Shown here: piece after piece, positions 32,141-35,106 of the stretch
Layout of the letters: every line of letters begins with the position of its first letter
How positions within the stretch are numbered: position 1 is the stretch's first letter
Source: Bacteroidota bacterium
GTDB lineage: Bacteria > Bacteroidota > Bacteroidia > Chitinophagales > Chitinophagaceae
Reading direction: 5' to 3'
Length of the DNA: 64,000 bases
Assembly (NCBI GenBank): GCA_018266555.1
Contig: JAFEAF010000010.1
Coordinates: forward strand, 1-64,000
Notes under the pieces: model-generated
Database searches by the model: none
Told to the model about the DNA's origin: nothing
What the model saw: the letters and a program-made list of their open reading frames with translations, nothing else
Position numbers and translations under genes: made by a program

Positions 32141-33850
32141 CTAATTCAACTTCCTCGCAAGTACCACCGTATTTTTAAACTTTTCTTTCTTTCCCTGCAG
32201 GTTAAACATTTCGGTGAAAATAACATAAGTGCCAACAGGTAATTTTCTTCCTTTGTCATCCAGTCCGTCCCAGTTCCAGTAACCGCTGGCGCCCAAAATT
32301 GCATTTTGAACCAAGCTTCTTACCGGCCTTCCTGCTGCATCAAAGATGGTAATATTAGCAGCAAATCCCGGATCAGCAACTTTATATTGTATGATTGCTA
32401 TATCATCACGGCCATCATTGTCCGGCGAAAAAACTTTTGGAGTTATTTCAATTGTAGCATTTATACCGGGAGGTTGTTTGTACTGAGAATTTTTATAAGT
32501 AGGAGTGCCATAACCTGCGGTAGATGCAGCCGAATGCCAGTTGTTCGGGTCTTGCGATGTTCCATCGGGATCAATTCGCTCTAATGCAACCCCATCTTCA
32601 TTATCTAATAATTTAAAATGCCAGCTATGATTATAATCCACTTCATCTGCAACGGCACCCTGTGCATTTAAAAGCACTACAAAACCCTTGTCATCGGGAA
32701 AAGAGGGTAATGAAGAAACTTCCAAAACGTTTTCAGGAACTTTTACCAGATAATTGCCCTGAAGATTTAATGAGTTTTGAGTACTTACAATGTAATCTCC
32801 CGGAAATATCAAATAAGGCAATGACGATAACGCTGTCACAGAGCTGATGGCATTGCTGCTGTTTCGGTTTGCTACATACATTTTTGAAGCGTCAAATATT
32901 TTATTCCTACGATTATAAAACTCTACATAATCATACCCATTGCTCTGCGGATTAAAAAGTATTTCATTTACAACCATGTCAAACGGTGCAGCATCTTCCG
33001 GTAAGCCCGCCTTAACATGATTATTCGATCCGATGAGATTGCCTTTACAATCTGAAATATTTGTTGCTTTGATTGTATAAACAGTTTGTACTGACATTTT
33101 GCTGTTCAGCTTCAACTGTACTTTGTCAAACAGAGGTGATAACGTAGTAGCGTTGGCTATGCTTAATCCCCCATCAATAGTATAATTTGAAACGGTTGCG
33201 CCAAGAGAACTGTCAACCGGTTCATCAAAAACGATAATAATAGTTATGCTGTCTAAAGTGTAAGTTCTCAATAATGAAGGAGGAGCCTGATCTGTATTAA
33301 CAGCATCAACAGAATTTTTTCTTCCGGGTGTGCCGCCACCCGGATCAATGCTGGCTTTCCAGTTATCGCTACCTGCACAGGGGCTTTTAGTATCTATCAT
33401 TTCAAGCGTCCAACCGCCACTGGCTTTCACCGCATTTTGATACCATGAATCTGAATAACTGACTGCATGAATAATGGATCCGTTTGCAGCTTTCAAAAAA
33501 AGCTGATCACCTGCATTGTCCAGCGATGGAAAGCTTGTAACTGATATCGTGGTTCCAAATGCTGAAAGCGCAGCCACTGCTGAACCGGTACAAACCACGA
33601 CAAAACTATCCGGCTGCAAAGTAAAATTTGGCATCGGTCCACTTTGACTGGTAGCATCACCAATCCGCCAGTTTTGTAAATTAATCGGAATAGAACTTGT
33701 ATTTTTCAATTCTATCCATTCATTGTTGGGCAATCCAACCTGTGGTGTCGGGTCAGCCATGATTTCGTCAATAACTACATCATACCTGTTTTGAGAAAAG
33801 GTTGACATTGCAAAGCAGACTACCAATGGAAGAAGTAAAAAAGACTTCAT
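32141..33850 (-). CDS. Lamin-tail-domain surface protein
   Basis: 569 residues from ATG 33850. A signal peptide ends at STFSQ. It contains lamin-tail (LTD) folds: VVIDEIMADPTPQVGLPNNEWIELKNTSSIPINLQNW at the N terminus and MVVNEILFNPQSNGYDYVEFYNR at about 300. A Big-type SbsA-like domain lies between. The C-terminal 75 residues (ITIFDAAGRPVRSLVQ, NWDGLDDKGRKLPVGTYVIF) form a FlgD-like Ig domain common in T9SS or gliding-linked proteins. Function unknown; exported. The start is divergent from asd. Confidence 0.85.
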   Translation of the reverse strand: MKSFLLLPLVVCFAMSTFSQNRYDVVIDEIMADPTPQVGLPNNEWIELKNTSSIPINLQNWRIGDATSQSGPMPNFTLQPDSFVVVCTGSAVAALSAFGTTISVTSFPSLDNAGDQLFLKAANGSIIHAVSYSDSWYQNAVKASGGWTLEMIDTKSPCAGSDNWKASIDPGGGTPGRKNSVDAVNTDQAPPSLLRTYTLDSITIIIVFDEPVDSSLGATVSNYTIDGGLSIANATTLSPLFDKVQLKLNSKMSVQTVYTIKATNISDCKGNLIGSNNHVKAGLPEDAAPFDMVVNEILFNPQSNGYDYVEFYNRRNKIFDASKMYVANRNSSNAISSVTALSSLPYLIFPGDYIVSTQNSLNLQGNYLVKVPENVLEVSSLPSFPDDKGFVVLLNAQGAVADEVDYNHSWHFKLLDNEDGVALERIDPDGTSQDPNNWHSAASTAGYGTPTYKNSQYKQPPGINATIEITPKVFSPDNDGRDDIAIIQYKVADPGFAANITIFDAAGRPVRSLVQNAILGASGYWNWDGLDDKGRKLPVGTYVIFTEMFNLQGKKEKFKNTVVLARKLN

Positions 33851-33902
33851 CAATCCAAATTAAAGAATGAGAAGGAAAAACTATTAATAATTGTAAATAA
33901 TT

Positions 33903-33934
33903 TTTGGATGTAATCCTGTTGGTAAGTACTTTTG
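33903..33934 (+). promoter_or_regulatory. Promoter of the asd leader
   Basis: TTTG at 33903-33906 and TACTTTTG at 33927-33934 with a 20-base spacer match the Bacteroidota consensus. Transcription would start near 33940, 9 bases before the leader-peptide ATG and about 180 bases before asd. Confidence 0.65.
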
Positions 33935-33948
33935 TTCCTCGTTGATTT

Positions 33949-33993
33949 ATGAACGGTATTAAATATACAAAACACACCAAGAAACATTCCTGA
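33949..33993 (+). CDS. Putative asd leader peptide
   Basis: A 14-residue reading frame, MNGIKYTKHTKKHS, starts 15 bases after the -7 element. Four Lys, two Thr, one Ile, one Asn and one Met: nine of 14 residues belong to the aspartate family that Asd supplies. It ends 3 bases before an antiterminator arm. It has the layout of an attenuation leader peptide. Lys codons are common in AT-rich DNA, so composition alone is weak evidence. Confidence 0.55.
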   Translation: MNGIKYTKHTKKHS

Positions 33994-33996
33994 CAG

Positions 33997-34068
33997 GAAG
34001 GCTTGTTGTATTTTGTATGTAAAAACATAAAAAGATTGCAGGCCTTCAGAGATGAAGGTCTTTTTTTT
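33997..34068 (+). terminator. asd attenuator: antiterminator and intrinsic terminator
   Basis: The terminator is GGCCTTCA (34041-34048), loop GAGA, TGAAGGTC (34053-34060) and eight T to 34068. The arm GAAGGCTTGT (33997-34006) can pair instead with GCAGGCCTTC (34038-34047), eight Watson-Crick and two G-U pairs. The two structures exclude each other. A smaller stem TTCCT-GAC-AGGAA (33987-33999) overlaps the leader stop. There is no plus-strand gene upstream, so this terminator must act in the asd leader. Confidence 0.7.
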
Positions 34069-34116
34069 AACCATACTCCAAACCCCCATGAGGGAGAGGG
34101 GAATAAAATTTGAAAA

Positions 34117-35106
34117 ATGAAAGTTGCAGTAGTAGGCGCCACAGGATTAGTAGGCACCAAAATGTTACAGGTATTAGCAGAAAGAAATTTTCCGGTCACA
34201 GAATTAGTACCGGTTGCTTCGGAAAAATCAGTTGGTAAAGAAGTGGAATTTAAAGGGAAGAAATATAAAGTAGTAGGACTGGCGGATGCTATTGCAACAA
34301 AACCTGATATAGCATTATTTTCTGCCGGCGGAAGTACTTCATTGGAGTGGGCGCCAAAGTTTGCGGCCGCAGGCATTACCGTAATAGATAATTCTTCAGC
34401 CTGGAGAATGGATCCATCAAAAAAATTAGTGGTACCGGAATTAAATGCAGATGTATTGACAAAAGATGACAAGGTGATTGCCAATCCGAATTGTTCCACT
34501 ATTCAAATGGTGGTAGCATTAAATCCGTTACATAAAAAATATAAAATAAAAAGAGTTGTAGTCAGCACCTACCAAAGCGTAACGGGTACCGGAGTGAAAG
34601 CTGTGAACCAGTTATTCAATGAGAGAAGCGGGGTGGATGGAGAAAAAGCATATAAGTACCCGATTGACCTCAATGTAATTCCCCAGATAGATGTGTTCCT
34701 GGATAATCATTATACTAAAGAGGAAATGAAAATGGTGAATGAAACAAAAAAAATTATGAGAGATGATTCAATCCGGGTGACGGCTACTACGGTTCGTATT
34801 CCCGTAGTGGGCGGACACAGCGAGGCGGTGAATGTTGAATTTGAAAAGGATTTTGATCTTGGAGAAATAAAAAAACTTTTATCTGAAGCTAGCGGAATTG
34901 TTGTGGTTGATGATCCATCCAATCAATTATACCCCATGCCCAAAGATGCGCATGAAAAGGATGAAGTATTTGTTGGAAGATTAAGAAGGGATGAATCACA
35001 GCCAAATACACTTAACATGTGGGTGGTTTCCGATAATTTAAGAAAAGGCGCTGCTACCAATGCTGTGCAGATAGCTGAGTATTTACTTGCAAAAAACCTT
35101 TTATGA
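34117..35106 (+). CDS. asd: Aspartate-semialdehyde dehydrogenase
   Basis: 329 residues. Forms aspartate semialdehyde from aspartyl phosphate with NADPH, the branch to Lys, Thr, Met and Ile. N-terminal Rossmann motif GATGLVGTKMLQVL, catalytic Cys in NPNCSTIQMV, base in GGHSEAVNVEF, and the YQSVTGTG loop. The length is normal. A promoter, leader peptide and terminator/antiterminator pair lie upstream (33903-34068). A motif ACCCCCATGAGGGAGAGGGG-like run at 34081-34101 is probably incidental. Confidence 0.96.
   Translation: MKVAVVGATGLVGTKMLQVLAERNFPVTELVPVASEKSVGKEVEFKGKKYKVVGLADAIATKPDIALFSAGGSTSLEWAPKFAAAGITVIDNSSAWRMDPSKKLVVPELNADVLTKDDKVIANPNCSTIQMVVALNPLHKKYKIKRVVVSTYQSVTGTGVKAVNQLFNERSGVDGEKAYKYPIDLNVIPQIDVFLDNHYTKEEMKMVNETKKIMRDDSIRVTATTVRIPVVGGHSEAVNVEFEKDFDLGEIKKLLSEASGIVVVDDPSNQLYPMPKDAHEKDEVFVGRLRRDESQPNTLNMWVVSDNLRKGAATNAVQIAEYLLAKNLL

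Follow-up and report, generated by a model that had tools for sequence, protein, structure and literature searches.

A probable lysine-codon attenuator in the leader of asd in Chitinophagaceae

The gene asd, encoding aspartate-semialdehyde dehydrogenase, lies on the plus strand of the window, as we call the whole 64,000-nucleotide stretch analyzed here (Bacteroidota bacterium, Chitinophagaceae; contig JAFEAF010000010.1, positions 1 to 64,000), and its product matches the profiles TIGR01296 (432 bits; cut-off 324) and NF011456 (452 bits; cut-off 223). An earlier note on this DNA had proposed that asd is controlled by ribosome-mediated attenuation through a Lys/Thr-rich leader peptide, and the promoter, the 14-codon ORF, the antiterminator arms, and the terminator with its eight T that it described are all present where it had placed them. 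To these parts we add a third helix, overlooked in that first reading, in which arm 1 pairs with 34002-34020 and arm 2 is hidden.

33903-33934, plus strand: putative promoter of the Bacteroidota sigma-A type (TTTG/TAnnTTTG), recognized by sequence, with TTTG at 33903-33906, N20, and TACTTTTG at 33927-33934
33949-33993, plus strand: leader ORF of 14 codons, MNGIKYTKHTKKHS, with Lys at codons 5, 8, 11, and 12 and the stop codon TGA at 33991-33993
33963-33981, plus strand: arm 1, within the Lys/Thr codons, pairing with 34002-34020 in the full-length fold
33995-34020, plus strand: arm 2 region, of which 33997-34006 pairs with arm 3, and 33995-33999 and 34002-34020 pair with the arm 1 region
33997-34047, plus strand: antiterminator 2:3, GAAGGCTTGT (33997-34006) with GCAGGCCTTC (34038-34047), from the minimum free energy (MFE) fold and the swap test described below
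34040-34068, plus strand: intrinsic terminator 3:4, with its stem at 34040-34061 and a U tract (eight T) at 34061-34068
34053-34060, plus strand: TGAAGGTC, part of the terminator stem
34117-35106, plus strand: asd, aspartate-semialdehyde dehydrogenase, with its ATG at 34117

Architecture and folding of the leader

The intrinsic terminator at 34040-34068 is situated between the leader ORF and asd. Since the neighboring gene upstream of the leader (32141-33853) is encoded on the minus strand, a plus-strand terminator at this position has no target other than transcripts initiated at the leader promoter, which bears out the argument of the earlier note that no plus-strand gene lies upstream and that the terminator must act on asd. 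A generic promoter and terminator scan of the region yields no more sites than are found in shuffled sequence; the case rests on conservation.

The RNA from 33941 to 34069 folds at -33.9 kcal/mol (z -4.4), a stability matched by none of 200 shuffles, and in the absence of a ribosome it adopts a long 1:2 hairpin followed by the terminator. An inner stem, 33987-33991/33995-33999, accompanies the 1:2 helix in the window and helps to hide arm 2. When the leader ORF is removed, the remaining segment (33994-34069) folds into exactly the 2:3 antiterminator (MFE z -3.92). To simulate translation, we masked the bases under a ribosome, computed the equilibrium pairing of the rest, and moved the A site codon by codon. 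The terminator probability predicted by this equilibrium model for the window is 0.998 with no ribosome and 0.993 with the A site on the stop codon; it is 0.80, 0.49, 0.18, and 0.003 with the A site on Lys5, Lys8, Lys11, and Lys12, respectively, and 0.37 and 0.12 on Thr7 and Thr10. No shuffle of the arm 2 region, among 500, matched this switch. In the model, then, the window's leader switches as had been claimed from its geometry, a ribosome at the stop codon favoring termination and one stalled on Lys exposing the antiterminator arm.

Conservation and co-variation in Chitinophagaceae

The DNA before asd has the same layout in the first 25 relatives with a match, and a covariance model, R1, was built from 25 asd leaders. 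Searching 149 genomes of the family with R1 returned 104 matches at E ≤ 1e-5, of which 94 are on the strand of asd, 22-206 bp ahead of the gene, and represent 94 of the 143 asd-bearing genomes sampled; the other ten comprise seven at dapA, one at an asd split by a contig end, one at hisG, and one at a thioesterase gene. Carriers of the leader include Niastella yeongjuensis (Chitinophagaceae), Niabella ginsengisoli, Sediminibacterium roseum, and Limnovirga soli, and about one-third of the sampled asd-bearing genomes of the family have no R1 match before asd. Across 395 genomes sampled from the whole phylum, strong R1 matches are limited to Chitinophagaceae, and no such leader is found in the asd upstream regions of the named Sphingobacteriaceae, Cytophagales, and Flavobacteriales. 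The earlier note had looked to an alignment of asd leaders from related Chitinophagaceae, and across the family the ORF and both alternative stems are indeed conserved and the arms co-vary. The terminator hairpins of the 97 leaders analyzed have a mean energy of -17.1 kcal/mol, and 77 of these leaders have at least five T in the 11-base tail window.

Weak R1 matches in other families (E 1e-5 to 1e-3) were rejected as members of this group, as they correspond to Thr/Ile leaders of thrA, a trpE leader with WWW, and chance gene-end terminators. Most of the weak matches in the genome that contains the window (E > 0.007) fall at gene ends, the ilvE leader being an exception.

RNAalifold applied to a MAFFT alignment recovers only the terminator, as expected for alternative arms that exclude one another, and we therefore used an alignment-free arm-swap test, in which an arm of one species is paired with the partner arm of another and the result compared with native pairs. 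Native pairs are far stronger than swapped ones for the three helices of the mechanism (z -13.3 for 1:2, -9.6 for 2:3, and -17.2 for 3:4), versus z values of -0.7, -0.7, and -1.4 for the control combinations 1:3, 2:4, and 1:4; because relatedness affects all six combinations equally, it is the contrast between them that constitutes the evidence. Compensatory changes, which the earlier note had hoped to see in both stems, are found in 2:3 and extend to 1:2: among 24 aligned leaders with ORFs of the 14-codon class, six of 11 base pairs in 2:3 and six of 12 in 1:2 have changed on both sides, more than in most shuffled and slid controls, and the terminator arms co-vary as well. Folds, swap test, and compensatory changes thus agree on mutually exclusive 2:3 and 3:4 helices with 1:2 as a further alternative.

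The spacing of codons and arms is likewise conserved. Measured from the first base of the last core Lys codon, pairing in arm 2 begins at a median distance of 15 nt (5-95% range, 12-18) downstream; the interval searched for arm 2 opens 11 nt after that codon, such that the clustering is informative and the lower bound is not. The first paired base falls between -11 and +6 nt of the stop codon in nearly all leaders, and in 97 of 97 the stop is no farther from arm 2 than a ribosome footprint, a placement in which a ribosome stalled on Lys would free arm 2 and one on the stop codon would cover it. The stop codon either immediately precedes arm 2, the design seen in the window, or falls inside it (...EGV*, ...EVA*).

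When the equilibrium simulation is extended to the relatives, the terminator probability is higher at the stop than at the last Lys codon, the predicted direction, in ~95% of them, but a large switch (difference > 0.3) appears in only 27% of asd leaders, compared with 0.8% of shuffles, and a clear one in none of ten dapA, lysC, and aminotransferase leaders. Few relatives switch at equilibrium because the terminator hairpin is generally more stable than its alternative; in most of them it is too stable, and kinetics or the order of synthesis, with 2:3 forming first, must be assumed. We accordingly read the simulation as modeling a switch in the window's own leader alone.

A box resembling TAnnTTTG or TAnnTTCG precedes the leader ATG, its end mostly 7-10 nt away in relatives and 14 nt away in the window, in keeping with the TTTG/TAnnTTTG promoter consensus (PMC7366714). 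If, as the name of the box (-7) implies, transcription starts ~5 nt downstream of it, then the 5′ UTR of most relatives would be a few bases long, and we infer a nearly absent 5′ UTR in most of these leader RNAs. In Bacteroides, 5′ UTRs shorter than 10 nt make up only about 3.7% of the total (PMC7366714), and the Flavobacterium psychrophilum study found leaderless mRNAs to account for only 5.5% (PMC9723704).

Leader codons, proposed mechanism, and competing explanations

All 97 asd leaders contain a short ORF with three to six Lys codons; although this ORF was first picked partly by its Lys content, the frame is unchanged in 96 of 97 when the ATG closest to the model start is simply taken. Lys makes up 25.7% of residues in this frame versus 7.4% and 10.8% in the other two. 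We defined four Lys columns anchored on the motif K-x-T-K-x-T-K-K, and of the resulting 388 cells 330 are Lys, divided between AAA (163) and AAG (167), and two are Arg. A-to-G changes are therefore free in the third codon position and almost absent in the second, a pattern that is indicative of tRNA-Lys decoding, as opposed to base pairing or the charge of the peptide by itself, and that gives indirect support to translation of the predicted leader ORF. Thr is the second commonest leader residue (12.4%) and is far less constant: column 3 is Thr in 78 and Ile in 15 of 97 leaders, column 6 is Thr in 52, Ile in 19, Asn in nine, and Ser in nine, and Thr codons are absent from five of 97 asd leaders and three of seven dapA leaders. 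Within arm 1, conservation of the codons cannot be fully separated from conservation of the 1:2 pairing. The Lys/Thr proposal of the earlier note thus stands in a refined form: Lys is a near-invariant residue, and since Thr alternates with Ile, Asn, or Ser or is missing, we regard Lys as the main and supported signal, with Thr sensing possible and unproven.

Taken together, the conservation, the co-variation, the geometry found in 97 of 97 leaders, and the window simulation support the earlier interpretation, and we consider it highly probable that a ribosome-mediated transcription attenuator of the classical type, responsive to lysyl-tRNA(Lys), controls asd; as judged from sequence, the leader has every element of this class of regulator. 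Transcription would start just 5′ of the leader ORF. With ample charged tRNA-Lys, a ribosome would pass the Lys codons, reach the stop at 33991-33993 and cover arm 2 at 33997-34006, leaving 3:4 to pair and transcription to end near 34068. With Lys scarce, the ribosome would stall at the Lys codons, with the greatest effect at codons 11 and 12, and disrupt arm 1; arm 2 would then be free to form 2:3, which blocks the terminator and allows asd to be transcribed. Without translation, 1:2 would hide arm 2, making termination the default.

The alternative that deserves most attention retains the same attenuator and makes it a joint sensor of aspartate-family amino acids (Lys and Thr, perhaps Ile), a reading that we hold to be possible though rather doubtful. 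Asd acts before the branch point of the pathway, Thr or Ile occupies column 3 in 93 and column 6 in 71 of 97 leaders, asd leaders average 2.1 Thr against about one in dapA leaders, and in the model stalls at Thr7 and Thr10 also lower the terminator probability of the window. Leaders of thr operons elsewhere are bivalent for Thr and Ile. Against this, the five asd leaders that dispense with Thr codons can be set beside none with fewer than three Lys, Thr is exchanged not only for Ile but also for Asn and Ser, the Thr codons overlap arm 1 and their conservation can reflect pairing, and thrA of the same genome has a Thr/Ile-rich leader ORF of its own.

The remaining alternatives do away with Lys decoding or with the switch itself. 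The recurrent short basic motif K-H-T-K-x-T/I-K-K would be compatible with a nascent-chain arrest peptide, where the basic peptide and not the decoding of Lys stalls the ribosome; the rarity of Arg for Lys (two of 388 cells) and the free exchange of AAA and AAG argue otherwise, as do the variable residues between the Lys and the dapA and lysC leaders, which keep Lys and lose the motif, and we judge this reading very unlikely. Slightly less probable still is a ligand-binding RNA (a lysine riboswitch, a T-box, or another) in place of a translated leader: the terminator/antiterminator layout is common to riboswitches, but no Rfam family matches the window, RF00168 is absent from the 149 family genomes, and the region is an open Lys-coding frame under frame-specific codon selection. 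Finally, a constitutive partial terminator, or the terminator of another transcript, beside a chance ORF would fit the observation that such terminator-like sites are equally common in shuffles of the region; given a divergent upstream gene, family-wide conservation of ORF, arms, and spacing, and alternative arms that co-vary, this is the explanation to which we attach the least credence.

Relation to known regulators and other leaders

The proposed lysine attenuator shares with the classical his, thr, ilv, leu, trp, and phe attenuators of E. coli and Salmonella a short ORF with regulatory codons, arms pairing as 1:2, 2:3, and 3:4, an intrinsic terminator between the ORF and the first gene, and a stop within the footprint of arm 2. 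It differs from them in its lysine codons, its occurrence in Bacteroidota, its little or no predicted 5′ UTR (the -7 box and the leader ATG being mostly about 7-9 nt apart), and its position before asd alone in the window. E. coli thrL, a Thr/Ile leader, is alike in controlling an aspartate-family pathway by attenuation and in having Thr codons, whereas the constant residue of the asd leader is Lys and thrA of the same genome has its own Thr/Ile-rich ORF; assignment to a thrL-type Thr/Ile attenuator was rejected, as Thr and Ile are not constant (Thr is absent from 5/97 and exchanged for Ile, Asn, or Ser). The lysine riboswitch (L-box, RF00168) likewise places lysine-pathway genes under lysine-dependent control, but it binds lysine directly and is untranslated, unlike this ORF-based leader. 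RF00168 has no match in the window and none in 149 family genomes, in a search that recovered all the controls (E. coli, B. subtilis, T. maritima, and L. lactis), and a scan of the whole window gave no Rfam match at gathering score, the T-box model included.

A published list of leader-peptide attenuators (PMC1183508) comprises his, trp, thr, ilv, leu, and phe, and lysine genes are described as controlled by the lysine riboswitch (PMC12925634); a survey of Actinobacteria similarly assigns lysine to L-box control elsewhere and his, thr, and phe to attenuators (PMC1262725). In Bacteroidota, leader-peptide attenuation has been suspected (PMC7366714, PMC9723704). The portion of the Flavobacterium psychrophilum study considered here reports candidate attenuation leaders upstream of amino-acid operons, of the same phylum and mechanism class, and names no lysine or asd case (PMC9723704). 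Our searches of open-access papers turned up no description of a leader-peptide attenuator for lysine; the mechanism class is known, and the lysine specificity, the gene, and the family-wide distribution appear to be new.

The same leader family precedes dapA, which encodes the first lysine-specific enzyme, at seven loci in relatives (for example, MQLIKKHTKQVKKHSMYGEG, MNLIKKYSSKKNISEREDA, and MIKKYNKVSKKRSILQEG), and related Lys-containing leaders precede an aspartokinase gene (MQIKKHNKMMKCITRR) and an aminotransferase-aspartokinase pair (MTRKLHKSKKHLPNR). In the window's genome, no such leader was found at dapA or at the closest lysC homologue. We lean toward the view that the lysine regulon of Chitinophagaceae is built on one ancestral family of Lys-codon attenuators that replaces riboswitches at asd and, variously, at dapA, aspartokinase, and the aminotransferase-aspartokinase pair, with stalling read on nearly leaderless RNAs whose peptides would begin no more than a few bases from the 5′ end. 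If true, a lysine attenuator would extend the set of amino acids sensed by leader peptides and explain how a family lacking the lysine riboswitch could regulate the pathway, and the asd leaders would offer a natural data set, across many species, of codon choice, pairing, and spacing in a four-arm switch.

Other leaders occur in the window's genome. A His leader, MKLNNHIHHHGHLTHQVGRDDRML, lies ~-136 to -61 before hisG (contig C10, upstream of 209514; L264) and is followed by its own terminator, GGCTTACC/GGTAAGCC with a T run, before the gene. The leader of ilvE, encoding the branched-chain aminotransferase (C10, ~201640-201800; L086), has Ile/Val codons (...IIIVVVIIISSSTGGGA / MLKKHSYSIITSIAAIIIVVVIIISSSTGGGA) and a CCCGCC/GGCGGG terminator. 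Upstream of thrA, encoding the bifunctional aspartokinase-homoserine dehydrogenase (C29; L095, 117478-118371, minus strand), a Thr/Ile-rich ORF with a GTG start, ...IIISTTTTIPFYGIK, is followed only by a weak AAAGAC/GTCTTT hairpin. Leader codons in this genome thus track the product of the downstream gene, which makes Lys the natural reading for asd, and these His, Ile/Val, and Thr/Ile leader ORFs suggest that these bacteria rely on attenuation as a general means of control.

Other loci, L188, L193, L194, L196, and L203 (from the same taxonomic class but another family) together with L189, carry thrA leaders with runs of Thr/Ile codons, for example MTTNNTIIITIITTGINLGGR, and a Trp leader, MINTQNIWWWNSLKR; these sequences would make attenuators widespread in Bacteroidota. 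A different leader-plus-terminator precedes the gene for a YciA-related hotdog acyl-CoA thioesterase in three relatives (L072, 1-2000, L074, and L081 in G106, G061, and G096, respectively), with the peptides MSTIYTHTNCWKKHRYSEGYGIY, MNNMSKHIMYCKWLRISEGYDIC, and ...INNSKHTKCCTYRLSAKGYCIL, in which Cys, Trp, and Tyr codons recur.
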